Positions 15,372 to 52,636 of a stretch of DNA of 64,000 bases are shown piece by piece. The notes below the pieces were generated by a model. The model was not told the origin of the DNA and did not search any database. It saw only the letters and a program-made list of their open reading frames with translations. Position 1 is the first letter of the stretch. The number at the start of each line of letters is the position of its first letter. The DNA lies in NCBI RefSeq assembly GCF_003010935.1, contig NZ_PGGN01000006.1, forward strand, positions 124,001-188,000, in the 5' to 3' direction. The DNA is from Phyllobacterium endophyticum. Its GTDB lineage: Bacteria; Pseudomonadota; Alphaproteobacteria; Rhizobiales; Rhizobiaceae. The position numbers and the translations under genes are program-made.

Positions 15372-15421
15372 TGCTGGTACGCCCAAGGGGAATCGAACCC
15401 CTGTTTGCGCCGTGAGAGGGC
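15372..15421. repeat. left attachment site (copy of the tRNA-Glu 3' part)
   Basis: 50 bp identical to 25508-25557. It contains the T-arm, acceptor 3' strand, CCA and anticodon-stem part of the tRNA (minus strand), then diverges at 15422. It is not a working tRNA because the 5' half is missing. This is the expected product of tyrosine-integrase insertion into a tRNA 3' end. Confidence 0.93.
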
Positions 15422-15636
15422 CGCTTAACCGGCCTTTTGCGAAATTGATTAGCACCCATTTTTATCCCAGCTTACCCGTCCAACCTCTCTCCATATCTTT
15501 GATATCATTGGTTTAATCCCTGAGAGCAAGTTAAATTGCGTTACATTTAGCTTGCCTGCGATTGTACCGGTATATACACTCCTATTTTACCGCTACTGGC
15601 TTCCGAGGGCTTAGGGTAAAATGGAGAACCGACATA

Positions 15637-17070
15637 ATGGCACGCACTATACGCGAAGCGACACTAGATAGTCGCACGGCAAGAAGCAACTTGAAGACCG
15701 GCACGAAGAAGAGCGGCGAGAAGAAGAAAAGCGGCGACGATATCCACTTTCGCACTCTAATCCCCGGCGAACTGCACCTTGGCTATCGCCGCCACCAATC
15801 TGGGGTGCCGGGGGTTTGGCTGGCGCGAATATATGTGAAGAAGATGTCTGGCGAAAAAGGCAGCCCGTACAAGAAAGTCGTGCTTGGCCGCGCCGACGAC
15901 TACCAAGATGCAGACGGCGAAAAGGTACTGACTTTCGGGCAGGCACAGAAGCTGGCTTATAAAGCTGCTGAAGACGCCGAGCGCGAGTCCAAGGAAGCCG
16001 CCATCGCCCAGGAAGAAGCCGCTAAGCCAAAGCCGCTGACAGTGAAGGATGCGATAGAGGATTATATCGTTTTCCTGAAGGCACATAAGAAGACCGGCAG
16101 GGACGCTGAGCGCCGGGCAAACGTGCTTATACTGCCAACCCTTGGCGACGTGGCCGTGGTGGACCTGACTACCGACCAGTTGGCCAAATGGCGCGACGCA
16201 CTGGCGGCAGCCCCTGCCCGGCTGCGCACGCGTCCCACGGAGGACCAGCGATACAAGCCAGCCCCAGCCACCGCCGACGAAAAGCGCGCCCGGCGCGCCA
16301 CCGTAAACCGCACACTGACTGTCCTTAAGGGAGCGCTGAACCGAGCCTTTAAACTAGGCCGGGTGAACGACGACCTTGCATGGCGGCGCGTGGAGCCCTT
16401 TTCCAACGTGAGTGCAGCCCGTGAGGATTTCCTATCCAAGGAAGAGATAACCCGCTTTCTTAATGCTGCTGACGAAGGTTCCGGTTTTAGGGCTATCGCA
16501 CAAGCCGCGCTGCTGACCGGCTGCCGGTATGGGGAACTGTGCAATCTAAACGCCAAAGATTTTGAACATGGCCGCATTGTCGTGCGGGAATCCAAGAGCG
16601 GTAAGCCGCGCCGCGTGCGATTGACCCCGGAAGCCGTGAATTTCTTTACCGAGCACGTTGCCGGGCTCGCCAAAGATGCCCCTATGTTTGTGAAATCAGA
16701 CGGCGAACGCTGGGGACCTTCCCACCAGATTCGGCCGATGCTGGCCGCTTGCGTGGCTGCCAAGATAAAGCCGGTTGGCTTCCACCAGTTGCGACACACC
16801 TATGCCAGCCTTTCCATTATGAACGGCGCTTTGTTGAACGCCGTTGCAAGGAACCTTGGCCACGCAAACACGTCCATGGTGGAAAAGCATTATGGCCACC
16901 TGACCGATGACTACATGGACGAGGCTATCCGCGTCGGTGTTCCAGAGTTTGGCATTACCAAACCCGGCAAGGTGGTTCCATTCGAGCCCGCTGACCGTTT
17001 CCTGCTTAATAGGGCAGACGTGGTGGAATTGGAGCCCGACCAGATGGTTGTGAAGAAAGACCGCAAATGA
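15637..17070 (+). CDS. int: tyrosine-family site-specific integrase of the element
   Basis: A 477-residue recombinase. The N-terminal part has an Arm-type DNA-binding region (GVPGVWLARIYVKK), then a SAM-like core-binding domain. The C-terminal catalytic domain has all expected residues: Arg in TGCRYGEL, Lys in SKSGKPRRVRL, HxxR in HQLRHT, His in LGHAN and the nucleophile Tyr in KHYGHL. The frame is open from a TTG at 15562, but the ATG at 15637 with GGAG 10 bases upstream is the better start. It lies just inside the left att repeat and reads inward. Its stop overlaps the next gene (ATGA). Confidence 0.95.
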   Translation: MARTIREATLDSRTARSNLKTGTKKSGEKKKSGDDIHFRTLIPGELHLGYRRHQSGVPGVWLARIYVKKMSGEKGSPYKKVVLGRADDYQDADGEKVLTFGQAQKLAYKAAEDAERESKEAAIAQEEAAKPKPLTVKDAIEDYIVFLKAHKKTGRDAERRANVLILPTLGDVAVVDLTTDQLAKWRDALAAAPARLRTRPTEDQRYKPAPATADEKRARRATVNRTLTVLKGALNRAFKLGRVNDDLAWRRVEPFSNVSAAREDFLSKEEITRFLNAADEGSGFRAIAQAALLTGCRYGELCNLNAKDFEHGRIVVRESKSGKPRRVRLTPEAVNFFTEHVAGLAKDAPMFVKSDGERWGPSHQIRPMLAACVAAKIKPVGFHQLRHTYASLSIMNGALLNAVARNLGHANTSMVEKHYGHLTDDYMDEAIRVGVPEFGITKPGKVVPFEPADRFLLNRADVVELEPDQMVVKKDRK

Positions 17071-17681
17071 GCGATCTACCGCCTTGGCCAGAAACCATTG
17101 AGGAAGCGACCCCGGCGTGGTTTGCCAGCGTTGAGGCATGGGTGGAGCAGGCCGACGAGGAAGGACTGATTACCGTGTTCCGCGAAGGCCAACGGTATGC
17201 CAACTTTAAATCCGACGAGTTGGAACTGCTGGTCTTTCCACCCCCCGGCATTGCGGCTGACGAACTTGAGGCAATTCGGCAGGGCAACGCCAAGCGATTA
17301 CGCGGCGAGCCCAGCCCGTGGGCAGGGGTGTCCGCGTGCCTTCGGGCTCCATTGCCCACGCCTGCGTTCCTTTCTGTGATCGCTGATTTGATTGATGGTA
17401 ACGGGTTACAGAACAGGGGCGCAGTTAACCCGACCAAGGCGGAGGTCCAGGCCCGCCGCGACCATTGCGCTGCCGTATTGCGGCAAGCCTATCGTAAAAA
17501 ACCCATGCGCTCTTGCCAGCAAAAGGGAAAAGATGTGGTTTCCCATGAGTCCCTGCGCGAAGGCGAGAGCCTGCAGGATGCTCGCGACCGCATAGATAGT
17601 GTTCTCGGCCACGGTGCAAAACGTGACGGCGACGACAAGATTTCCAAGATTATTATTCGCGCCCTTAAGGCGCTGGGGTGA
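17067..17681 (+). CDS. unknown element protein coupled to the integrase
   Basis: 204 residues, acidic in the N-terminal half and basic in the middle, with no membrane segment and no motif I recognise. The ATG overlaps the integrase stop (ATGA), so it is translated with it. It contains a single conserved-looking tail (DRIDSVLGHGAKRDGDDKI). Being coupled to an integrase suggests a role in excision or regulation, but nothing in the sequence proves it. Confidence 0.7.
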   Translation: MSDLPPWPETIEEATPAWFASVEAWVEQADEEGLITVFREGQRYANFKSDELELLVFPPPGIAADELEAIRQGNAKRLRGEPSPWAGVSACLRAPLPTPAFLSVIADLIDGNGLQNRGAVNPTKAEVQARRDHCAAVLRQAYRKKPMRSCQQKGKDVVSHESLREGESLQDARDRIDSVLGHGAKRDGDDKISKIIIRALKALG

Positions 17682-17788
17682 CGCCCTAGCCAAATTGAAC
17701 GATCCTTTGGCCATACGCCTAACGCAATAACACCCATTCTGAACAAATAAAACCCGCGCGCTAAGGGCGCTGGCTTGTCGCAGAAAGT

Positions 17789-17802
17789 ATTAATGCGTTA
17801 AT
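17789..17802. promoter_or_regulatory. AT-rich inverted repeat, possible operator
   Basis: ATTAA-TGCG-TTAAT is a perfect 5-bp inverted repeat, followed by further TTAA/TATA-rich sequence (to about 17817), 36 bp before the helix-turn-helix gene. It lies where a promoter is expected and could be bound by that regulator. No direct proof. Confidence 0.4.
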
Positions 17803-17837
17803 GTATGTGTATATTAACCCGCTAAAGGAGACTACCT

Positions 17838-18155
17838 ATGAGTAATGATAACAATAAGAAAGAAGTAGACTTGCGCTCTCCTCTTGAAAAAGGGCGTTTG
17901 CTTTTGTCTATTACTGAGTTTTGCCAGTGTGTCGGCATTTCTCGTGTAACCTATTACGCGTGGAAGCGAGAAGGCATTATCCCAGCCGAGGGCTTTGAAA
18001 CCCGCCTTGGTGCCGGGATAGTGCGCATAAGCTTTGAAGCCATGCTTGCGTGGATGCGTGCTCGGGGTGCACCGGTCGGTGACGAATTGCTGGCCGTGCA
18101 GCAGCAGATAGAGCGGCGGAAAGAACATTCCCATATCGCTGTCGGTGGGCGCTAA
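17838..18155 (+). CDS. AlpA/MerR-like helix-turn-helix regulator or excisionase
   Basis: 105 residues. LSITEFCQCVGISRVTYYAWKREG is a clear helix-turn-helix of the type seen in AlpA-like and excisionase proteins, with the turn at VGIS and Tyr/Trp in the recognition helix. A strong AAAGGAG lies 7 bases before the ATG. In P4-like and PICI satellites an AlpA protein controls integrase or replication genes, and the position between int and primase fits that. It could also be a simple repressor. Confidence 0.72.
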   Translation: MSNDNNKKEVDLRSPLEKGRLLLSITEFCQCVGISRVTYYAWKREGIIPAEGFETRLGAGIVRISFEAMLAWMRARGAPVGDELLAVQQQIERRKEHSHIAVGGR

Positions 18156-18160
18156 CGCCG

Positions 18161-18748
18161 ATGGCCGCCGACAGGGATGAGAGGGAATGGAGACAGCTGT
18201 TGAAGTATGCTGAGCCCGCCTTTGAGCCCCGGCAGTGCAGTATTCCCAACGTGGTTGACTGCATACGCCGCACGTACGTTCTGTGTCGCCACAGGCCCCG
18301 GCGTGGACCGTTGCCGCCGAACCACGGCCCGGCGTTTTTGGTCTATGAGATGTTCCCCTCCGGTAAATATGTTCCGGAGGAATACCAGCATATATTGATC
18401 GGCCAGATGATGACCCCGCCGACCGATTGGCAGCGTGAGTACATCGGCAGACTTCGCATGTGGTTCGCCATAGCCCGCACCCAAGAGCGGTCCACCCGCC
18501 AGCTTACCGAAGCCAGCCGTGATGACGCTTACGTGCGGTACTCCCGCTTTACGGACTGGCCACAATTCTACACCGACTTTATCCGCATCGCCGAAGCCGA
18601 CGACCTCGCGTTCCTTGCTGACCAAGGGATAACCAAGGACGCCGCGCTGCTGCTTGATGGCACTGGCCGCTGGGAACCAATGAACCTTGCCGCCATGCCG
18701 TACAAAATAGAAAATGACAAAGGACTGACAGGATGGACGCACATTTGA
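18161..18748 (+). CDS. unknown element protein upstream of the primase
   Basis: 195 residues, Arg- and Trp-rich, with no membrane helix. Motifs such as CIRRTYVLCRHRPRRG (two cysteines and a histidine) are suggestive of metal or nucleic-acid binding but are not a complete zinc finger. It starts 5 bp after the regulator and overlaps the primase start by 16 bp, so it is part of the replication operon. Function unknown. Confidence 0.7.
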   Translation: MAADRDEREWRQLLKYAEPAFEPRQCSIPNVVDCIRRTYVLCRHRPRRGPLPPNHGPAFLVYEMFPSGKYVPEEYQHILIGQMMTPPTDWQREYIGRLRMWFAIARTQERSTRQLTEASRDDAYVRYSRFTDWPQFYTDFIRIAEADDLAFLADQGITKDAALLLDGTGRWEPMNLAAMPYKIENDKGLTGWTHI

Positions 18749-20343
18749 GTACCGACGCTTCCGTCGGGGAACGGTATGCGCAGGCTATGCGCGACTTATT
18801 CCCCGGCCCAAGCAATCGCAGTTTGACTTACGATTTGGCGAAATATGACAGGCTTAAGGCCGCGTCGCCAAACGAGAAGATTAAGCTGAGGGACTGCGGT
18901 GGTGATTTTGACGTTAAAAAGGCCGCGACAGTAGAATTCTGGCGGATGCATCTGGATCGAAAGCGCCCGTTGGGTATTAGCCCGGTAATGGACGATGGCA
19001 ATTGTCTCTGGGGCTGTATCGACGATGACGTATACGGCAGCGACCGCCGCTCTGAGTTGTTAAAACTGATTGCACTGGCCAAGTTGCCACTGGTGATGTG
19101 CGAGTCCAAGTCGGGCGGGTCGCACCTTTACCTCTTCTTGAGCGAGCCCGCGTCCGCCGGGGAGGTGTACAAAGCGCTGACCGCCTTTGCCGCGAAGTTG
19201 GGACTGAAAGAGTTTGACCTCTTTCCCAGCAACCCCGACGGAATAACGTCCAGCCAAGTGAACATGCCGTACCTCGGCGAAGAGCGCTGGTACATCGACC
19301 AGGGTGGACTGACAAAGACCTTGGGGGAGTTTCTGGACGCAGCGGAGAAGGCTAAGGTTTCCGTGAGAGCCATGCGCACCGCCGCGAGGATAGCCAACGC
19401 CAGCCAAGCCAGCGATGCCGACAATGACGCTGTGGCCGAACCACAGAATGGCACCATGGGCGACGCCGAACAGCGGCTGGAACTGTGGAAGGCTCGCTTT
19501 GCGGACAGAGCTCCAGTGGACCTGCGGTATGTACATGCGAACAAGATTCTTGCCGCCGCCGCCTATGATCTAGGACGATGGGTACGAGACTGTGGCCTTT
19601 CGGAGTTCGCAGCCCACGACGCCATGCGCCAAGCATGGCTTACCCGTAAGGCTGAGGAGGGCGGCGATGAAGCCACGTTTGATGATATATGGAAGCGGCA
19701 ATATGCCGAAGGCTTTGCCAAGGGCAGCCCGGCCAAGGTGTCCCCCGGCGCAACCTTGCCGTATTTTGAGCGCGTGCAGTATGAGCGCGATGACAAGGGC
19801 AAGAAGGTTTACCTGATCCAGATTGAAGGCAAGATAGTACAGGCAACAACTCCCGAACTAACCGACTGGAAAAAGTTTAACGATTGTTGCGTGGAGTATC
19901 TAAGCAAGCGGATAACGTACATTCGCAGCAAGGAGATTTGGGGCAAATATATCCAGCGCGGCCTCGATATAGAAGAGGAAATCCCGCAGGAATATATAAC
20001 CAGCGAGGCAGAGTTATTCCGTGAACAGTTGGAAAGCTTCTTAGTTGATTATTACCGGGCAGAAACTAGGGAGGCGATTCTACTGGGAAAGCCATGGGAG
20101 GACGAGGACCACTTTCGCTATGTCTTTAGAATGATGGACCTTGAAAAGCACCTGAGGTCTTTATCCAGCCGCTTTGTTGTGGAGAGCAGAACTGCGCTTG
20201 GCAAACGCATCCGCGCATTGGACGGTGATGACACGAACCTGCGCATTAGAGGTAAGGTCGTTAATGTGTTCTGGGTGCCCAGCAGGCACTTCCAAGCAAC
20301 GCCTACCATTCCACCGCACACGTTCGAACCAGATCCCCTATGA
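18733..20343 (+). CDS. AEP-superfamily primase (primase-polymerase) of the element
   Basis: 536 residues. The N-terminal domain has archaeo-eukaryotic primase features: an acidic catalytic motif in LWGCIDDDVYG (Asp97-99), a basic/His motif ESKSGGSHLYLFLSEP (His131), and FPSNPDG with NMPYLGE after it, as in the TOTE/phage primase-polymerase group. A helical linker (about 230-320) resembles PriCT. The C-terminal 200 residues are unassigned. No Walker A is present, so it lacks a helicase domain. It should prime replication of the excised element, and the twelve-copy repeat array begins 18 bp after its stop. Confidence 0.82.
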   Translation: MDAHLSTDASVGERYAQAMRDLFPGPSNRSLTYDLAKYDRLKAASPNEKIKLRDCGGDFDVKKAATVEFWRMHLDRKRPLGISPVMDDGNCLWGCIDDDVYGSDRRSELLKLIALAKLPLVMCESKSGGSHLYLFLSEPASAGEVYKALTAFAAKLGLKEFDLFPSNPDGITSSQVNMPYLGEERWYIDQGGLTKTLGEFLDAAEKAKVSVRAMRTAARIANASQASDADNDAVAEPQNGTMGDAEQRLELWKARFADRAPVDLRYVHANKILAAAAYDLGRWVRDCGLSEFAAHDAMRQAWLTRKAEEGGDEATFDDIWKRQYAEGFAKGSPAKVSPGATLPYFERVQYERDDKGKKVYLIQIEGKIVQATTPELTDWKKFNDCCVEYLSKRITYIRSKEIWGKYIQRGLDIEEEIPQEYITSEAELFREQLESFLVDYYRAETREAILLGKPWEDEDHFRYVFRMMDLEKHLRSLSSRFVVESRTALGKRIRALDGDDTNLRIRGKVVNVFWVPSRHFQATPTIPPHTFEPDPL

Positions 20344-20360
20344 TGATGCTATGGGCAAAG

Positions 20361-20722
20361 TGTAGGGCGTTTTGGCCCGAAAAGCGCAAAACGGCCTACA
20401 AACGGCCTACAAAAAAGGCGCGTAATTACAGGCACATAGAATGCGTGTAGGGCGTGTAGGCTATGTAGGCCCTTTTTGTTACGCGCGTTTATTGGACGGT
20501 GTTACATCGTCTAAAATACATCGTGAAAAGACCATGGTTTCTGGCTCTAAGGCCGGGGGATTATCGCTACCTGTACTTGCGAAAAGTGCTTTAATTGCGC
20601 GCGCGCATAAAACAGCCTACACAGCCTACATGGCCTACGTGTGCGCTAACCTGTTGGAAACGCTTGGTAATTTTGTAGGGCGTTTGTAGGCCGTTTTATG
20701 TTTGACCCAATAACAGCCTACA
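20361..20722. repeat. dyad-symmetric array of twelve TGTAGG heptamers, probable replication origin
   Basis: Heptamers TGTAGGC/G or their complement GCCTACA/G start at 20361(+), 20394(-), 20405(-), 20446(+), 20455(+), 20464(+), 20615(-), 20624(-), 20633(-), 20674(+), 20685(+) and 20716(-). Spacing is 9 bp inside each triplet and 11 bp inside each pair. The order + / -- / +++ / --- / ++ / - is symmetric about 20542, and the flanks also match as inverted sequence. The centre (20471-20614) has no heptamer. A short open frame at 20441-20689 is only translated repeat. Confidence 0.85.
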
Positions 20723-20742
20723 CGAACAAAGCTATTCCAGCG

Positions 20743-20778
20743 GCGCAGCGGCAGCGCACCCCCGGCACACCGCTGCGT
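20743..20778. other. GC-rich hairpin beside the repeat array
   Basis: GCGCAGCGG pairs with CCGCTGCGT (one G-T pair) around an 18-base loop. No T-tract follows, so it is a poor terminator. It lies between the heptamer array and the next gene, in a stretch (20723-20880) where nothing else is seen. Confidence 0.4.
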
Positions 20779-20910
20779 CGTGCAGTTGACCACTTTCCAG
20801 GACGGTCGAGCGCGTTTTGCACCTTGGCCGCTGGCATACAGCCGGGCAGCACCTAAACGCCCTGTACGGTCCTAAAAATTAACAGGCTAAAACCAAGAAA
20901 GGAACAAAGC

Positions 20911-21288
20911 ATGAACCAATTAGCGCTAAGAGAGATCGAACCATTCTACGTCGTGCCTACCGTGATGCATGTGCAGCGCTTTATTGATGGCGACTTGCTG
21001 ACGATTGCAGTGTGCACACGGGAAGATGGCGAAGAGACCTACCGGGGCGACATTACCATGAACAAAGAGATAGCCATGGAGCTTGGCCACTTTGCCGAAT
21101 GTGTTGAGCAGCTATTGCAGTTCCCGGTATCGCAGGAATTTACCGAGCGCTGGCGGTTGATGATGGGGCAGGGCATACGCAATGCACGAATGACCGTTTA
21201 CCGGACTACGCGCCCGGTCGGCGGAGCAGCAACGGAAGCGCCGGTAATTGCTGACCGGTTGGTGGTAGCAGTAAAGAATCCACAGTGA
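20911..21288 (+). CDS. unknown small element protein
   Basis: 125 residues, soluble, with a good ribosome-binding site (AAAGAAAGGAACAAAGC before the ATG). Sequence such as YRGDITMNKEIAMELGHFAECVEQLLQ suggests a helical core flanked by beta strands. I do not recognise a family. It is the first gene after the origin-like array and stands apart from the terminase operon, which is where satellites often carry accessory or anti-helper genes; that is inference. Confidence 0.65.
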   Translation: MNQLALREIEPFYVVPTVMHVQRFIDGDLLTIAVCTREDGEETYRGDITMNKEIAMELGHFAECVEQLLQFPVSQEFTERWRLMMGQGIRNARMTVYRTTRPVGGAATEAPVIADRLVVAVKNPQ

Positions 21289-21326
21289 TGTATGATCCCC
21301 TCGGATGATTCGAAGCGGGGGCTTAC

Positions 21327-21698
21327 ATGACTATTGATCGCATTGGTTTTATCGTTGTCCTTCTGGCGTCGATCGTGTGCGTGGTTCTGGGAGTAGTCGG
21401 GCTAGTTAAGCCCCGAATCCCAGCGGGTAAATGGATGTCTACGGCAAGCGCGCTGCTCGCGCTTTCGTCGGTTTACCAGCTTAGAATAACCGGCTGGTTC
21501 GATAGCGTGCTGGAAACCTTTGGAGATGCCGACAAATTCCCTTTTGGGCCACCTTCGGAGATTACGCGCCAGATAATCGATAACCCTGATGCGCCGATCC
21601 AATCGTGGATACGAAACACGCTCTTCTTTAATCCGACGACGGGCGCAGAATTGGCCGTTGCGAGTATAGTTGCGGCGATTATCGCGGTGTGGATATAG
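21327..21698 (+). CDS. small membrane protein of the element
   Basis: 123 residues with a strong N-terminal helix (IGFIVVLLASIVCVVLGVVGLV), a second moderate hydrophobic stretch (STASALLALSSVY) and a C-terminal helix (LAVASIVAAIIAVWI) that ends at the stop. The loop between holds charged and Pro-rich sequence. It could be holin-like by topology, but no lysin is nearby and the size of the loop argues for another role. No family recognised. Confidence 0.6.
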   Translation: MTIDRIGFIVVLLASIVCVVLGVVGLVKPRIPAGKWMSTASALLALSSVYQLRITGWFDSVLETFGDADKFPFGPPSEITRQIIDNPDAPIQSWIRNTLFFNPTTGAELAVASIVAAIIAVWI

Positions 21699-21858
21699 AC
21701 TGCATTAATCCAAGATCGGGGATTTAATTCGTGAAAACTCGTGTTTTTCCCGACGACCGATCCGCCTGCGTCTTCCGCTCTGACTCCGCTTATGTAAGGC
21801 GCAAACACTATCGCGCCCTAACCCACATTTACCCACAAAAACAATGGCTTAAGAGTCG

Positions 21859-21900
21859 TGCGTCCTGTACTATATAGCTAACAACGCAATATAGGACGCA
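21859..21900 (+). promoter_or_regulatory. inverted repeat that can mask the Shine-Dalgarno of the packaging operon
   Basis: TGCGTCCT (21859-21866) and AGGACGCA (21893-21900) are perfect complements around a 26-base loop containing TATATAG. The AGGA of the right arm is the ribosome-binding site for the ATG at 21903. It may be an operator over a promoter or a translational switch. Confidence 0.55.
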
Positions 21901-21902
21901 AT

Positions 21903-22154
21903 ATGCCCGCCAAATACCCCCACAAAAGGCGCAAGCCACCCGCAGCCAAGCCCGCCGCCTTGGCCCCGGCCAAGACTTCCGGGGTTACAGACAGGGACGT
22001 GATCCACCTGCGCCAGAAATTGGCAGCCGTTCGCTACAATGATGGCATGACCGTCGGGGCGTTCGTTGCCAAGAATGCCGACCGCACTGTGGCCCTGCAA
22101 ATGCTGTACCGCGACCACAAGGCCGGGCGCATATCGTTTGAGGGGCGGCGCTGA
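21903..22154 (+). CDS. small basic protein, first gene of the packaging operon
   Basis: 83 residues with a Lys/Pro/Ala-rich N-terminus (HKRRKPPAAKPAA) and a short helical C-terminus. It may bind nucleic acid. The ATG sits 7 bases after AGGA. The stop overlaps the next ATG (TGATG). I do not recognise a family. Confidence 0.6.
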   Translation: MPAKYPHKRRKPPAAKPAALAPAKTSGVTDRDVIHLRQKLAAVRYNDGMTVGAFVAKNADRTVALQMLYRDHKAGRISFEGRR

Positions 22155-22441
22155 TGACTGACCTTAGCAAGCTGCCAATGAGCCTCTATCCTTTTGCGGC
22201 CATTCCTGCCGAGATGCACGACAGCATTAATATCCACCGCCTGAGCCAGAGCGCTGAGGTGGAGGGGCGATACGGGTACGAGATGAAGGCCAGTGCCTTC
22301 GTCGCCAAGCACACCGACCCCTGCCGGGCGCTGGACGAGGACTACAAGGGCCAGCACATAACCTACACGGCAAGCGGTGATCTATGGGTCTGCGGCCATT
22401 GCGGAACGCTGATCCGCCGACCAGCAAGTTACCAAAGGTGA
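22154..22441 (+). CDS. small element protein with a CxxC knuckle
   Basis: 95 residues. The C-terminus WVCGHCGTLIRRP has one CxxC and, further up, His and Cys residues (HTDPCRALDEDYKGQH), so it may hold a zinc site. It is coupled to both neighbours: TGATG at its start and GTGA at its end. No function assigned. Confidence 0.6.
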   Translation: MTDLSKLPMSLYPFAAIPAEMHDSINIHRLSQSAEVEGRYGYEMKASAFVAKHTDPCRALDEDYKGQHITYTASGDLWVCGHCGTLIRRPASYQR

Positions 22442-22848
22442 CTGACCGCAAGCACCCAGCCTCTGGCGTTAAGCAGGCATACCCGAACAATGCTCGCAGC
22501 CGGGTGACGAACGGCAAGGACCTACTCCCCGGCGTTGACGGTCGCACCGCATGGGTAAAGCGGGCACGCGATCTGCTGTCCATCCACATTGCCGACCTTG
22601 GGGGTGAGGACGTTTGCAGCGAGGCAGAGAAGGGCATTATCCGCCGTGCCTGCGTGATAACCGTGCAGCTTGAGCAGTTGGAAAAGAAGTTCGCCATAAC
22701 CAACGAGGCCAAGCCAGCCGACCTTGATCTGTACTTCCGGGGTGCCAACACCCTCCGCCGCCTGCTTGATGTGACCGGCCTACAGCGTCGGTCCCGCGAC
22801 ATGACGCCAACTATTGATGAGTATATTCGGCGGGAGGCCGCTGAATGA
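22438..22848 (+). CDS. terS: putative terminase small subunit
   Basis: 136 residues from a GTG at 22438 that overlaps the previous stop (GTGA); an ATG at 22384 in the same frame would lie inside the previous gene. The mostly helical protein ends with NTLRRLLDVTGLQRRSRDMTPT, a pattern seen in TerS-like proteins encoded directly before TerL. TerS binds the packaging site and loads TerL. The assignment rests on position plus this weak likeness. Its stop overlaps the terL start (ATGA). Confidence 0.65.
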   Translation: MTDRKHPASGVKQAYPNNARSRVTNGKDLLPGVDGRTAWVKRARDLLSIHIADLGGEDVCSEAEKGIIRRACVITVQLEQLEKKFAITNEAKPADLDLYFRGANTLRRLLDVTGLQRRSRDMTPTIDEYIRREAAE

Positions 22849-24380
22849 AGGTATTGAATATTCTGGAAGCCTGCGCTGACGATAAGCTCTTCGCTCTGTG
22901 GTTTAAGAAGCGCGAAACATGGGAAATGTGGTTCGCCTTTCTGGCAGCCCTGTTCGCCCTGCCCATGGACGAGGCGCAGATCGCCACCTATCGCAAGCAC
23001 ACGGGACGCATGGCGCTACCCCAAAAGCCATTCTCCGAGGCATGGCTGGTGGTAGGGCGGCGCGGCGGCAAGAGCTTCGTACTCGCGCTGGTTGCCGTGT
23101 ATCTGGCGACCTTCCGCCAATATAAACAATATCTACAGCCGGGGGAGCGTGCCACCATCCGCGTTATCGCTGCCGACCGTAAGCAAGCCCGCACGATAAT
23201 GAACTATGTTCGGGGAATGCTGACAAATATCCCGATGTTGAAAAAGCTGATCGGCAATGAAACGGCAGAAGCCTTTGAACTGACCAACGGTGTGAACATC
23301 GAGATTGGCACTGCTTCGTTTAAGACCAGTCGCGGTTATACGTATGCCGCTGTCCTTGCAGACGAGCTTGCCTTCTGGCCCACTGATGACAGCGCAGAAC
23401 CAGACTACGCCATTCTAAACGCCATCCGCCCCGGCATGAGCACGATCCCCGGCGCGATGCTGCTTTGCGCCAGCAGCCCTTATGCCCGGCGTGGTGCCCT
23501 GTGGGACGCGTACAGTCGCTACTGGGGTAAGGCCGACAAGCCGCTGGTGTGGAAGGCCACTACCAAGGAAATGAACCCGGCCATTGACCAAGCTTTTATT
23601 GACGCGGAAGTGGAGCGCGACCCAGCCAGTGCGCAAGCCGAATATTTTGCCGAGTTCCGCACCGACATGGAACTGCTGCTGACGCGCGAAGTAGTACAGG
23701 GTTGCGTCGACCAGGGTGTGTATGAACGCCCCTACGAACCGGGCATTCGCTACCATGGCTTTGTAGACCCTTCTGGCGGCAGCAGCGACAGCATGACCCT
23801 TGCCATTGCCCACTATGTGGATGGCGGCGCGGTGCTGGATGCCGTGCGCGAGGTTAAGCCGCCATTCTCGCCTGATGCCGTTACACGCCAGTTTGCAGAG
23901 TTGCTGCAGAGCTATGGTCTGCGGTCCGTGACCGGAGACCGATATGCCGGGGAATGGCCCCGCGAGAAATTCCGCAGCTACGGCATAAATTACGAGCTTT
24001 CGCCGCAGAGCCGGAGCGACCTGTACCTGTCGCTGGTGCCTGCAATGAATTCCGGGCGCATCGCCCTGCTGGATTTGAAACCTATCGAAAACCAACTGAT
24101 CGCCCTTGAGCGCCGCACCAGCCGCGCCGGGCGCGACATCGTAGACCATCCCCCCGGCCAGCACGACGACCTCGCCAATTCCGTTGCCGGGGCTTTGATT
24201 ATGGCATTGGCGGCGGAAGCCAAGCCGCGCGGCGGTTCTGGCACCTACGGTTATGACGGAAAACTTGTCTGGAATACCGACGAGGCACCGGCGCGCGTTT
24301 GGCATTGGGGTCCGGGCATATCCGCTCTCGATGGCAAGCCAACAGCATACGCCAACGGACGCCAACGTCCGCTGAACTAG
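22845..24380 (+). CDS. terL: phage terminase large subunit (packaging ATPase and nuclease)
   Basis: 511 residues. The ATPase domain has Walker A VVGRRGGKS (residues 69-77), Walker B AAVLADELAF (Asp173, Glu174) and coupling motif LLCASSP (about 207-212). The nuclease domain has VDPSGGSSDS (Asp308), VTGDRYAGEW (Asp365) and a late acidic motif near GQHDDLANS. All catalytic sites look intact and the length is normal for TerL. It should cut and pump the element's DNA into a procapsid. No portal or capsid gene follows, so the procapsid must come from elsewhere. Confidence 0.95.
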   Translation: MKVLNILEACADDKLFALWFKKRETWEMWFAFLAALFALPMDEAQIATYRKHTGRMALPQKPFSEAWLVVGRRGGKSFVLALVAVYLATFRQYKQYLQPGERATIRVIAADRKQARTIMNYVRGMLTNIPMLKKLIGNETAEAFELTNGVNIEIGTASFKTSRGYTYAAVLADELAFWPTDDSAEPDYAILNAIRPGMSTIPGAMLLCASSPYARRGALWDAYSRYWGKADKPLVWKATTKEMNPAIDQAFIDAEVERDPASAQAEYFAEFRTDMELLLTREVVQGCVDQGVYERPYEPGIRYHGFVDPSGGSSDSMTLAIAHYVDGGAVLDAVREVKPPFSPDAVTRQFAELLQSYGLRSVTGDRYAGEWPREKFRSYGINYELSPQSRSDLYLSLVPAMNSGRIALLDLKPIENQLIALERRTSRAGRDIVDHPPGQHDDLANSVAGALIMALAAEAKPRGGSGTYGYDGKLVWNTDEAPARVWHWGPGISALDGKPTAYANGRQRPLN

Positions 24381-24395
24381 GATAGGAGAACTAAA

Positions 24396-25157
24396 ATGAC
24401 AGACCAGAAATTGCCCATAACAGCAGACACGAAAAATACCTTTGCACCCATTTCGCCGTCGATCCACGAAGGGGTAATCCAGCGGCACTTTGCAACCGAC
24501 CCAGCCACCCGCGACGTTGTGTTTGATCCGCTGCTGGAAGGCATGGCCGACGCCATGCAGACCCTGCGCTTGAACGTGGAAAAGGCCAAGCGTGTGGCGC
24601 AGGCCATCTTCGCCAATGAGATGGAAACCATACCCGCCCGCCACAAGCGGGTTAAAGAGGAAAGCTGGCGTGCCACGCAGGCCGGGACTAAAGCGATTGA
24701 TGCGATCTTCCCACGGGCGCAGCGCGAAATTGAAATGATTGAGCAGAAGATTAGCGCACCACCCCGGCCAGCCGACTCCGCCGGGCACATGCTGGCAACG
24801 GAGATCCGCTCGCGACTTTCCGCGATGAAGCCAGCCGACCGCAAGAAGGCAATAGACGCAGCCATGGCAGACGGCGACGATACGGTGCTGGGTGCAGTGT
24901 TGAACGCCCCGCCGATACTGTCTGGTGTTGGAAGTAACGAGGAAATGGCAATGCTGCGCACCCGCTGGCAGCGGGCACGCCATGGTGCAGACGTAAACCG
25001 GCTGGAGCGCATTAAGCAGGCCATGGACGATCTGACCCGTGCTGGAACTATCGCCAACAGCTACACGGCCCGTTTGGCCAATTCCAAAATTATCGACCAA
25101 GCCGAAGCAAAAGCCCAAGCCGTGAAGGACGCCATTTCCGGTGCAATTGCTTCGTAA
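24396..25157 (+). CDS. unknown helical protein after the terminase
   Basis: 253 residues, rich in Ala, Lys, Glu and Arg, with long predicted helices from about residue 45 to the end and no membrane segment. A good site (ATAGGAGAACTAAA) precedes the ATG, 15 bp after terL. In a phage this is where the portal sits, but nothing resembles a portal: it is half the size and lacks the fold pattern. It could be a scaffold-like or capsid-redirecting protein; that is only a guess from position and composition. Confidence 0.65.
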   Translation: MTDQKLPITADTKNTFAPISPSIHEGVIQRHFATDPATRDVVFDPLLEGMADAMQTLRLNVEKAKRVAQAIFANEMETIPARHKRVKEESWRATQAGTKAIDAIFPRAQREIEMIEQKISAPPRPADSAGHMLATEIRSRLSAMKPADRKKAIDAAMADGDDTVLGAVLNAPPILSGVGSNEEMAMLRTRWQRARHGADVNRLERIKQAMDDLTRAGTIANSYTARLANSKIIDQAEAKAQAVKDAISGAIAS

Positions 25158-25201
25158 ATCCGCTGCCGACCGCCGAAACCTGCTGCTTCGGTTGGCGCGT
25201 C

Positions 25202-25251
25202 GCGGGCTGCTCTACCACTTTCCCAAGGTCCCTAGTGGTGGGGCGGCCCGC
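25202..25251. other. 18-bp perfect-stem hairpin
   Basis: 25202-25219 pairs with 25234-25251 over all 18 positions (15 Watson-Crick, three G-T) around a 14-base loop. No T-tract follows (AACTTAATCC), so it is not a typical terminator. It is 44 bp after the stop of the last gene. Confidence 0.75.
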
Positions 25252-25301
25252 AACTTAATCCAGATCGCTAAGGCTAATATCTAATAGGCCAAGGCGTACA
25301 A

Positions 25302-25351
25302 GGCGGGTTGTTCTGATGTCTTAGCAGCCACGGAACAGCCCGCCGCTTTTT
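25302..25351 (+). terminator. Rho-independent terminator-like hairpin
   Basis: GGCGGGTTGTTC (25302-25313) pairs with GAACAGCCCGCC (25333-25344) with one G-T pair, loop of 19, followed by GCTTTTT. It could end the packaging operon transcript. Confidence 0.6.
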
Positions 25352-25396
25352 GCATACGCTGCCGACCGTCCCTTGTCCTGTCCCGTTGGCGCGTTT

Positions 25397-25441
25397 GGCG
25401 GGTTGTCTGGTGGGCAAAACACTAGGCGACCCGCCTTTTTT
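25397..25441 (+). terminator. Rho-independent terminator at the right end of the element
   Basis: GGCGGGTTGTC (25397-25407) pairs with GGCGACCCGCC (25425-25435), two G-T pairs, directly followed by six T. This is the clearest terminator of the element and would isolate it from the tRNA gene beyond, which reads the other way. Confidence 0.75.
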
Positions 25442-25507
25442 CTTGGCCGGTCTATTTTACCTGTCTTTTACCCAACTCGCTGATTATTTGTGCTAAGTGC
25501 TTGTTTT

Positions 25508-25557
25508 TGCTGGTACGCCCAAGGGGAATCGAACCCCTGTTTGCGCCGTGAGAGGGC
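25508..25557. repeat. right attachment site inside tRNA-Glu
   Basis: 50 bp identical to 15372-15421: three bases outside the tRNA 3' end plus the last 47 bases of the tRNA gene. The tRNA remains complete because its 5' half lies to the right. Confidence 0.93.
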
Positions 25558-25585
25558 GCCGTCCTGACCGCTAGACGATGGGCGC
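25511..25585 (-). tRNA. tRNA-Glu (anticodon CTC)
   Basis: 75 bases including an encoded CCA. The 5' strand GCGCCCA pairs with TGGGCGT, the anticodon loop is CT-CTC-AC, and the T-arm loop is TTCGATT between GGGG and CCCC. The anticodon reads GAG codons. It is the insertion target of the element, which restores its 3' half exactly. Confidence 0.95.
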
Positions 25586-35799: not shown

Positions 35800-35880
35800 G
35801 TTTTCTCCTATCCTTACAGATAGCTCGCCTCTCGTTGGGGAGAGGTGGCCCACTCCGGGAACTAGGAGAAATGTCGTTGG
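35800..35880 (-). promoter_or_regulatory. serC leader RNA with self-complementary Shine-Dalgarno
   Basis: TAGGAGAA (minus strand, 35810-35803), the ribosome site of serC, is complementary over 8 bases to TTCTCCTA (35870-35863) further upstream in the leader. Between them is a hairpin CCTCTC-loop-GAGAGG (35845-35828). The fold could hide the ribosome site. A serC leader motif is known from alphaproteobacteria; I could not compare with its model. Confidence 0.55.
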
Positions 35881-52477: not shown

Positions 52478-52507
52478 AAAAAAAGAGCCGCGAAACGAGG
52501 CGGCTCT
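52478..52507 (-). terminator. Rho-independent terminator
   Basis: AGAGCCGC/GCGGCTCT stem with an 8-base loop and TTTTTTT on the minus strand. It ends the candidate small RNA or the opgC transcript. Confidence 0.85.
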
Positions 52508-52575
52508 CAGGAGTCTAACAGGGAGGCGTCAAACAAAGTGGCCAAACCACTTGGTAAGAATCCAGAAAACTGGAT
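52478..52575 (-). ncRNA. candidate small RNA with terminator
   Basis: On the minus strand: CCAG-TTTT-CTGG (52573-52562), AAGTGG-TTTGG-CCACTT (52552-52536) and a terminal hairpin AGAGCCGC...GCGGCTCT ending in seven T (52507-52478). About 100 bases, no open frame, CtrA box just upstream at 52599. It may instead be only the 3' end of the opgC transcript. Confidence 0.45.
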
Positions 52576-52598
52576 GATCAATTCATAGATTGTAATGC

Positions 52599-52614
52599 TT
52601 AACCATTGGTTAAC
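52599..52614. promoter_or_regulatory. CtrA-type palindromic box
   Basis: TTAA-CCATTGG-TTAAC. It matches CtrA in both directions. It lies 22 bp after the opgC stop, so it cannot serve opgC and more likely controls the small RNA to its left. Confidence 0.55.
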
Positions 52615-52636
52615 GGAAACAGAAAACTCCGATTCA

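Follow-up and report, generated by a model that had tools for sequence, protein, structure and literature searches.

The window analysed here, a 64,000-nucleotide stretch of the genome of the soil bacterium Phyllobacterium endophyticum, carries an integrated element of 10,186 bp, an intact insertion flanked by perfect 50-bp direct repeats. Its features, in window coordinates, are as follows.

15372..25557, no strand: whole element, delimited by the 50-bp direct repeats and by empty sites in congeners
15372..15421, no strand: left att repeat (perfect, 50 bp), a partial copy of the tRNA-Glu 3' end
15562..17070, + strand: tyrosine integrase (PF00589, E 1.7e-19; phrog_1, E 2.4e-54)
17067..17681, + strand: 204-aa protein overlapping the integrase gene; no Pfam, PHROG or PADLOC match
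17838..18155, + strand: AlpA-type helix-turn-helix regulator or excisionase (HTH_17/PF12728, 29.4 bits, cut-off 27; phrog_66 excisionase, E 3.8e-5)
18161..18748, + strand: 195-aa protein; no Pfam, PHROG or PADLOC match
18733..20343, + strand: primase, 536 aa (phrog_21866, E 6e-26; AEP-TOTE, E 8.8e-5, below cut-off)
20361..20723, no strand: iteron-like cluster, 11 copies of CCTACA/TGTAGG; predicted replication origin
20911..21288, + strand: 125-aa protein; no Pfam, PHROG or PADLOC match
21327..21698, + strand: 123-aa protein, probably membrane (by eye); DUF454/DUF4190 weak, below cut-off; no PADLOC match
21903..22154, + strand: 83-aa protein; no PHROG match
22154..22441, + strand: 95-aa ORF, an ORF call only
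22384..22848, + strand: protein in the TerS position, start at 22384 or 22438, overlapping the TerL gene by 4 nt; family present in 37 of 38 delimited elements
22845..24380, + strand: terminase large subunit (TerL), 511 aa (phrog_2, E 2e-25; PF03354, 22.5 bits, just below the cut-off of 23.7)
24396..25157, + strand: protein of 253 aa encoded behind TerL, probably helical; an HMM places homologues at +1 to +3 of TerL in 13 of 38 delimited elements
25508..25557, no strand: right att repeat (perfect, 50 bp), inside tRNA-Glu and overlapping its 3' end
25511..25585, - strand: tRNA-Glu(CTC), the integration site (ARAGORN and Rfam RF00005)

The block had been delimited in a preliminary description made from the sequence alone, and those limits prove exact, with the repeats at both ends and the tRNA gene at the right. 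The site is unoccupied in seven of 19 congeneric genomes, where the two flanks, spliced together with the element removed, align as a single run or as collinear pieces. The integrase, AlpA-like regulator, primase and TerL named at that time are each confirmed by a profile match. The true start of the integrase is probably the ATG at about 15637, judged from where the homologue in the related locus L010 begins. Integrase homologues occur in the elements E2 (40%) and E3 (30%), and E3 also has a 48% identical homologue of the AlpA-type protein.

The replication module comprises the primase and the adjoining repeats. Phage primases are 28-36% identical to the element primase over parts, and a search with it against solved structures gave nothing useful. 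The hexamer CCTACA/TGTAGG occurs 11 times within 20340-20910 and twice in the remainder of the element, whereas the commonest hexamer never exceeds seven copies in 500 shuffles of the sequence; the origin-like repeats proposed earlier are therefore real. The cluster also contains a 27-nt inverted repeat (20388-20414/20671-20697) and, on this sequence evidence, is likely to be the replication origin. Several PICI traits are present: a site-specific integrase with att repeats, an AlpA-type regulator above the PF12728 cut-off, and a primase module (phrog_21866) with a putative origin in the iteron-like cluster. PF12728 is one of two AlpA models applied to satellites in PMC10803314.

The packaging genes lie downstream. 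The TerL profile touches the nuclease domains of solved TerL structures at E 0.007-0.01, and its catalytic residues are kept. Across the 38 delimited elements described below, the Walker A lysine is present in 37 and the Walker B and nuclease aspartates are present in all. The dN/dS of TerL is 0.04-0.19, indicating purifying selection in all 13 of the close pairs, picked by hand, that were compared. The gene before it had been called TerS-like. That assignment is one of position, made beside a TerL that it accompanies as a family, and profiles lend it no support: the window protein has no match in Pfam, PHROG or 50,697 phage records, a single member out of 45 in the family touches a nameless PHROG (E 0.0085), and PDB gave no meaningful match. 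The element thus shows the cf-PICI trait of its own TerS and TerL, TerL by profile and TerS by position and family, and departs from the PICI trait of TerS at most, with TerL from the helper, in encoding a TerL with its residues kept. The 253-aa protein finds no match in Pfam, PHROG, PADLOC, 50,697 phage records or PDB. It may be a scaffold or a capsid-size factor, a guess from its position and its repeated co-occurrence with TerL. The limitation of its family to 13 of the 38 delimited elements is counted against the reading preferred below.

Genes for a virus particle were sought throughout the element. Pfam and PHROG were each given ten of its proteins (the 82-aa and 95-aa ORFs lying outside both sets and the 83-aa ORF outside Pfam), and neither library matched any of them to a portal, capsid, tail or lysis family. 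Every product of more than 100 aa was scanned for a portal and none was recognised; nor was a major capsid protein, by Pfam, PHROG or a capsid-family search. The ten proteins given to Pfam, a set without the 82-, 83- and 95-aa ORFs, include no match to an HNH nuclease. Profile searches therefore agree with the earlier statement that such particle genes are missing, and reveal no portal or capsid remnant among the unknown genes, a finding that would have spoken against a satellite. The central observation, an element that brings genes for its own replication and packaging but no recognised particle genes, is confirmed.

The search for relatives of this gene order, suggested in the preliminary description, has yielded a family. 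Scans of genome and virus collections with single proteins found no relative, and the relatives came from alignment scans. Ends were sought by an att scan of 130 loci of at least 9 kb, 66 of them with a tRNA. Repeats bracketing TerL exceed chance, being found at 40 of the 130 loci with tRNA probes and at none with inverted probes; five-fold random windows gave six positive loci of 130, although some of these windows may fall on att copies themselves. Removal of the duplicates L010 and L011 from the 40 positives leaves 38 distinct tRNA-flanked elements of 9,353-18,345 bp with the same kind of TerL, 30 of them alphaproteobacterial. Four of the 38 are supported solely by repeats of 17-18 nt. TerL is present in all and the same TerS family in 37. 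Gene calls in the relatives come from a simple custom script rather than a standard gene finder.

No recognised portal occurs in any of the 38 elements, an HK97 capsid occurs in three (L113, L156 and L177) and is missing from 35, and some particle gene occurs in 18. The preliminary description had regarded a TerL without a portal as uncommon; among its kin it is the rule. Three Pfam portal families were sought in the 36 genomes or records holding the elements and none lies inside an element; four local portal profiles found none, nor did a reading of doubtful contig numberings. PHROG scans of one representative per candidate cluster of at least 350 aa also gave none. Portal types outside the profiles used could have escaped these searches, in which one-by-one scans of the relatives' proteins stopped at 240 aa. 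The capsid search recovered the three in-element capsids in the same genomes, so the method can detect such genes. In two satellite-like contigs, L063 and L090, this TerL is accompanied both by a portal and by a homologue of the 253-aa protein; the lack of a portal is thus not universal where this TerL is found. The nearest relatives are not full prophages, as they would be were the segment a decayed piece of one: no row of the element's 43-row TerL clade carries a portal label. That tree is a quick build from 143 of 164 loci, with duplicates and short and weak rows dropped, and its portal labels are four clusters: C9 and C44 take their names from PHROGs, and C240 and C286 were assigned from size and position.

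We think it probable that the element is an integrated phage satellite that brings its own TerS and TerL, attaches this motor to a helper phage's portal and fills the procapsid of that helper. The earlier satellite interpretation is supported, in that the element is bounded, inserted in a tRNA gene, absent from seven of 19 congeners and one of 38 such elements. Dependence on a helper, the identity of that helper and packaging are what we infer. The integrase and the AlpA-type protein, called as genes, would excise the element from tRNA-Glu, and its primase would replicate it from the iteron cluster. Its TerS would mark the element DNA and its TerL would pump that DNA into a procapsid. As the element has no recognised portal, capsid or tail gene, TerL would have to dock on a helper portal, and helper capsid and tail would be used; the 253-aa protein would perhaps serve as scaffold or size factor. 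Within this explanation we propose TerS and TerL as the constant core of the family, around which elements would swap their kind of integrase, their replication genes and extra particle parts (tape measure, neck, protease, capsid and fibre).

Other explanations fit parts of these data. The element could be a PICI-like satellite of the ordinary kind, with packaging done by the TerL of the helper and the element's own TerL competing with or blocking the helper motor or cutting concatemers. Integrase, AlpA-type protein, primase and TerS are the PICI kit, and a TerL without its own portal could serve as a decoy; the retained ATPase and nuclease residues and the strong selection on TerL make this unlikely, and 37 of 38 elements pair TerS with TerL, which agrees with a functioning motor, though all this is also compatible with a decoy. 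A very small autonomous phage, its portal and capsid diverged beyond recognition, would find room for them among five to seven unknown products that were judged by sequence profiles, not folds. Yet the largest product besides integrase, primase and TerL, at 253 aa, is short by portal standards, neither Pfam nor PHROG shows a tail or lysis gene, and the 38 relatives of 9.4-18.3 kb have no recognised portal even where, in three, an ordinary HK97 capsid is present; such a phage seems improbable. Slightly less credible still is a decayed prophage that has retained integrase, primase and terminase by chance. Several relatives do have partial head and tail gene sets, as remnants would, and in L153 TerL is shortened. 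Against this stand the sharp att ends, the TerS-TerL core in 37 of 38 elements, polymorphic occupancy and circular relatives, and decay is unlikely because TerL is under purifying selection in all 13 pairs; with the shared layout, that selection led us to reject it.

The host genome itself offers one candidate helper. PF04860 (portal) and PF05065 have one match each in it, lying near each other, and the portal matches the solved portal of the Rhodobacter gene transfer agent (E 3e-111). The element might then travel in the host's gene transfer agent, which holds the genome's only portal and capsid of these Pfam families. Gene transfer agent heads, however, hold only about 4-5 kb, under half the length of the element; in the host cluster, portal and capsid are separated by extra genes; and 19 of the 36 element-bearing genomes lack a PF04860 match, so that we give this idea almost no weight. 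The PF04860 portal was likewise rejected as that of a resident helper, since it belongs to the gene transfer agent; as it is the sole one and PF05133 and PF05136 portals are absent from the genome, no resident helper is known.

As a satellite with its own motor, the element is a variant between PICIs, which have TerS at most, and cf-PICIs, which have motor, portal and capsid. It resembles PICIs in size, integrase, AlpA-type regulator, primase with origin, a gene in the TerS position and the lack of recognised particle genes. It differs in having its own TerL, whereas PICIs as described take that of the helper and sometimes have their own TerS, and its TerS and 253-aa protein are without match in the 50,697 phage records. 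With cf-PICIs it shares TerS and TerL, and some relatives add an HK97 capsid and protease; cf-PICIs are described with capsid, protease, portal, connectors, terminase and HNH nuclease, whereas here the portal is missing from all 38 elements and the capsid from 35. The Streptomyces satellites Mulch and Flayer likewise have small and large terminase, but they have genes for portal, capsid and scaffold as well, and no obvious replicases. PICMIs, the minimalist islands of Vibrionaceae, share integrase, AlpA (by the PF12728 model), primase and the lack of capsid genes and are packaged as concatemers; they lie at fis rather than in tRNA-Glu, and the gene set given for them is without a terminase, a word that the paper nowhere uses. 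Also similar is scaffold ML_43_3791 of cryoconite satellite group G8, circular, 15.8 kb and from a virus-size fraction (Bellas et al. 2015, PMC4490671). It is termed a putative satellite phage-plasmid, with ParB, terminase, resolvase, phage tail, prim-pol and P4-type integrase. Several elements here likewise combine genes for a resolvase, a terminase and a tail; in the sections of that paper available, the terminase is neither singled out nor treated as a family trait.

Satellites described so far either rely on the motor of the helper or encode motor, portal and capsid as a set. Where the motor comes without a portal, the satellite TerL has to act on a foreign one, and natural pairs then allow the specificity of the TerL-portal contact to be tested directly. 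Relatives across bacteria with the same layout point to a parasite of viruses that loads itself into other viruses' shells. The family escapes annotation, the matching genes in five of six plasmid records being called hypothetical protein and its TerS family and 253-aa protein having no phage-record matches; for rhizobia and their relatives, on which the literature searched contains hardly any reports of phage satellites, it would add a common group of satellites recognisable by simple markers. A bolder idea, which we hold tentatively and think rather less likely true than false, is that the TerS-TerL clade is a portable satellite motor, retained because it can pass DNA into unrelated helper phages by way of their portals, while satellites collect single virion parts around it. 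One such part might be a tape measure, which would reset the length of the tail, and another a capsid unaccompanied by a portal. On this view satellites would grade continuously from those with the motor alone, via those that add selected parts, into nearly complete phages, and the fit of TerL to portal would be far looser than thought.

Of 21 whole relative contigs, two (L034 and L035) are circular, with repeats at their ends, the end junction of L035 being spanned by unbroken L034 sequence, and others lie on circular plasmid records of 9.7-58 kb; in five of six plasmid records the matching genes are annotated merely as hypothetical protein. An attP was sought in the circular relatives, and none of 77 tRNAs matches L034, L035 or two plasmid loci. 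The host genome carries a second such element at tRNA-Glu(TTC), with a 58% identical TerL. PADLOC found no defence cargo in five proteins of the window element or five of the second. In other relatives, whose bulk scans cover the best 25 of 55 Pfam families and the best 25 of 140 PHROG families, the matches listed include likely defence genes (SMODS, AbiJ, putAbiC and restriction-modification domains) and, in E2 and some relatives, P4/D5-type primases.

The block at 15372-25557 is a real, bounded unit. It is bracketed by perfect 50-bp direct repeats, the right copy of which lies within a tRNA gene:

25511-25585, minus strand, tRNA-Glu(CTC), its 3' part formed by the right repeat copy

The flanks joined without the element, used as a query, aligned as contiguous or collinear pieces, i.e. 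as an empty site, in 7 of 19 other congeneric genomes (G002, G006, G007, G009, G013, G018 and G019). The element is therefore an insertion absent from many congeners, and the limits proposed in the preliminary description are confirmed.

The gene set proposed there holds for the most part. The tyrosine integrase, HTH_17/AlpA-type protein, primase and terminase large subunit (TerL) are all called by profile, and the origin-like repeats stand up to shuffling: a 571-bp stretch separating primase and late genes holds CCTACA/TGTAGG 11 times, and no hexamer exceeded 7 copies in 500 shuffles. The small subunit (TerS) is assigned by position: its gene has a 4-base overlap with the downstream TerL and sits where TerS does in phages, and the protein matched no named family in Pfam, PHROGs, phage records or solved structures. 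The 253-aa product encoded downstream of TerL likewise gave no match in these collections or in PADLOC. A gene-poor stretch with G+C-rich inverted repeats (25160-25450) lies directly before the right att site and could contain a packaging site or terminators. Also before that site, at 25149 and 25345, are the two copies of an imperfect 24-nt direct repeat.

Relatives of this gene order, a search for which had been suggested at the outset, are readily delimited. Alignment scans with TerL provided 71 viral loci and the best 80 of 165 genome loci; a survey of sampled genomes that counted the window's own detected TerL in 6 of 149 relatives (one only at E 1e-4), 11 of 397 from the order and 4 of 385 from the class. 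Of 130 loci no shorter than 9 kb, 40 had tRNA-anchored repeats bracketing TerL (inverted decoys, 0 of 130; random windows, 6 of 130), which left, among the matches listed, 38 elements once duplicates were removed. The repeats are at least 25 nt long in 34 and only 17-18 nt in 4. The elements range from 9,353 to 18,345 bp, use 13 tRNA isotypes and come from Alphaproteobacteria in 30 cases, the others being Gammaproteobacteria, Nitrospira, Binatia and Acidobacteria records and one viral contig. Their replication genes vary (prim-pol, D5/VapE-like, RepA-like and helicase types); the constant part is TerS plus TerL.

The nearest relative among the matches listed is a 9,902-bp element in tRNA-Glu of the Rhizobiaceae MAG ECS31B3 (L010, identical to L105), with seven matching proteins including TerS (61% identical), TerL (64%) and the 253-aa protein (43%). 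The window's own genome has a second TerL, 58% identical to the first, within a second element that also encodes a primase of P4 type along with unknown cargo:

L009 (contig C5) 6347-19617, element of 13,257 bp at tRNA-Glu(TTC), with TerL of the same family

TerL function appears to have been kept, judging from coding sequence: dN/dS is 0.04-0.19 in 13 of 13 close pairs, the Walker A glycine and lysine are present in 37 of 38 proteins (the exception, in L153, is a short ORF), and the Walker B and nuclease aspartates in all 38. In one locus (L026/L029; G325:C6:1730544-1732805) a TerL of this family is split into two pieces ~0.87 kb apart, perhaps by an insertion or intron, and the downstream piece is followed by a homolog of the 253-aa protein. 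By sequence, two of the 21 whole viral contigs are circles, and unbroken L034 sequence spans the junction of the L035 ends:

L034, 9,819 bp, end repeat of 114 bp
L035, 9,398 bp, end repeat of 60 bp

TerL also occurs on circular plasmid records from Komagataeibacter, Methylobacterium and Roseomonas (the Roseomonas gene covers part only). In the Komagataeibacter nataicola plasmid pKNA06 (25.8 kb), ParA has TerS, TerL and a gene resembling a head protease as neighbors, and a 4.4-kb stretch is duplicated at 99.7%.

TerL without portal or capsid had been considered an uncommon mix. Among the kin of the element it is not: no portal was recognized in the 38 elements, within the portal types profiled, and the same kind of search with PF05065 recovered a capsid in only three (L113, L156 and L177). 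Across the 36 genomes and records bearing the elements, PF04860 matched at 28 places in 17 and PF05136 at 11 places in 8, none of them inside an element according to their place on the contig or, where contig numbers were ambiguous, to the DNA itself; PF05133 had no match. Four local portal profiles found nothing in the 38 elements, nor did PHROGs find a portal among products of at least 350 aa, taking one representative per cluster. At least one particle gene is recognized in 18 elements (tape measure in 11, tail fibre in 4, capsid, head protease and neck in 3 each) and none, in the scans made, in the other 20, which include the window element. An HK97-type capsid gene ~3 kb beyond the att boundary of a Mesorhizobium element (L118 18956-20041) is apparently a separate remnant. 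The region around a distant TerL (L014 in G071; E 1e-4) is opened by an integrase and has capsid-like and protease-like genes; no portal was seen there by eye.

The nearest relatives do not look like full prophages of which the element would be a decayed piece. In a quick TerL tree of 143 rows, the 43-row clade around the window TerL (SH-aLRT 97) lacks portal-bearing rows; the 17 such rows are scattered elsewhere. Among 164 TerL loci the TerS cluster occurs in 115 and a portal cluster in 23, with no overlap, or with one locus (L063) when a more sensitive TerS profile is used. L063 and another satellite-like locus, L090, carry portal, tape measure or neck genes together with a homolog of the 253-aa protein, which weakens any claim that the portal is always lacking. 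Only six GenBank phage records match TerL, at no more than 27% identity and none across >80% of its length.

The element is best read as a phage satellite bringing its own motor. From gene content, the one observed step, we infer the later ones: Int and the AlpA-type protein would excise the element, the primase would replicate it from the iterons, TerS would recognize its DNA and TerL would translocate this through the portal of a helper, which would also supply capsid and tail. For the 253-aa family a role as scaffold or size factor is proposed, from its position at +1 or +2 of TerL in 30 of 35 HMM hits and downstream of the portal in two portal-bearing contigs; as only 13 of the 38 elements have this family, it is not a general requirement.

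In the literature searched, which left most subscription papers outside, portal-less satellites carrying TerL were not found described as a family. The nearest published likeness is a set of small circular genomes that came from virus-size fractions and were termed satellite phage-plasmids, one of which combines a terminase with resolvase, tail, prim-pol and integrase genes [Bellas et al. 2015; PMC4490671], so single members of the family may have been seen before.

Between its portal and capsid genes, the host's own gene transfer agent cluster (L015 9922-18788, contig C4) carries additional genes spanning several kb, which encode a pair of similar small proteins and, in a further ORF, what by eye resembles a bacteriocin-type RNase domain. 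These genes are perhaps a toxin-immunity cassette within the cluster. Two RNA features were also found in the window:

35803-35855, minus strand, serC leader (RF00517)
52478-52623, minus strand, BjrC1505 sRNA (RF02356)
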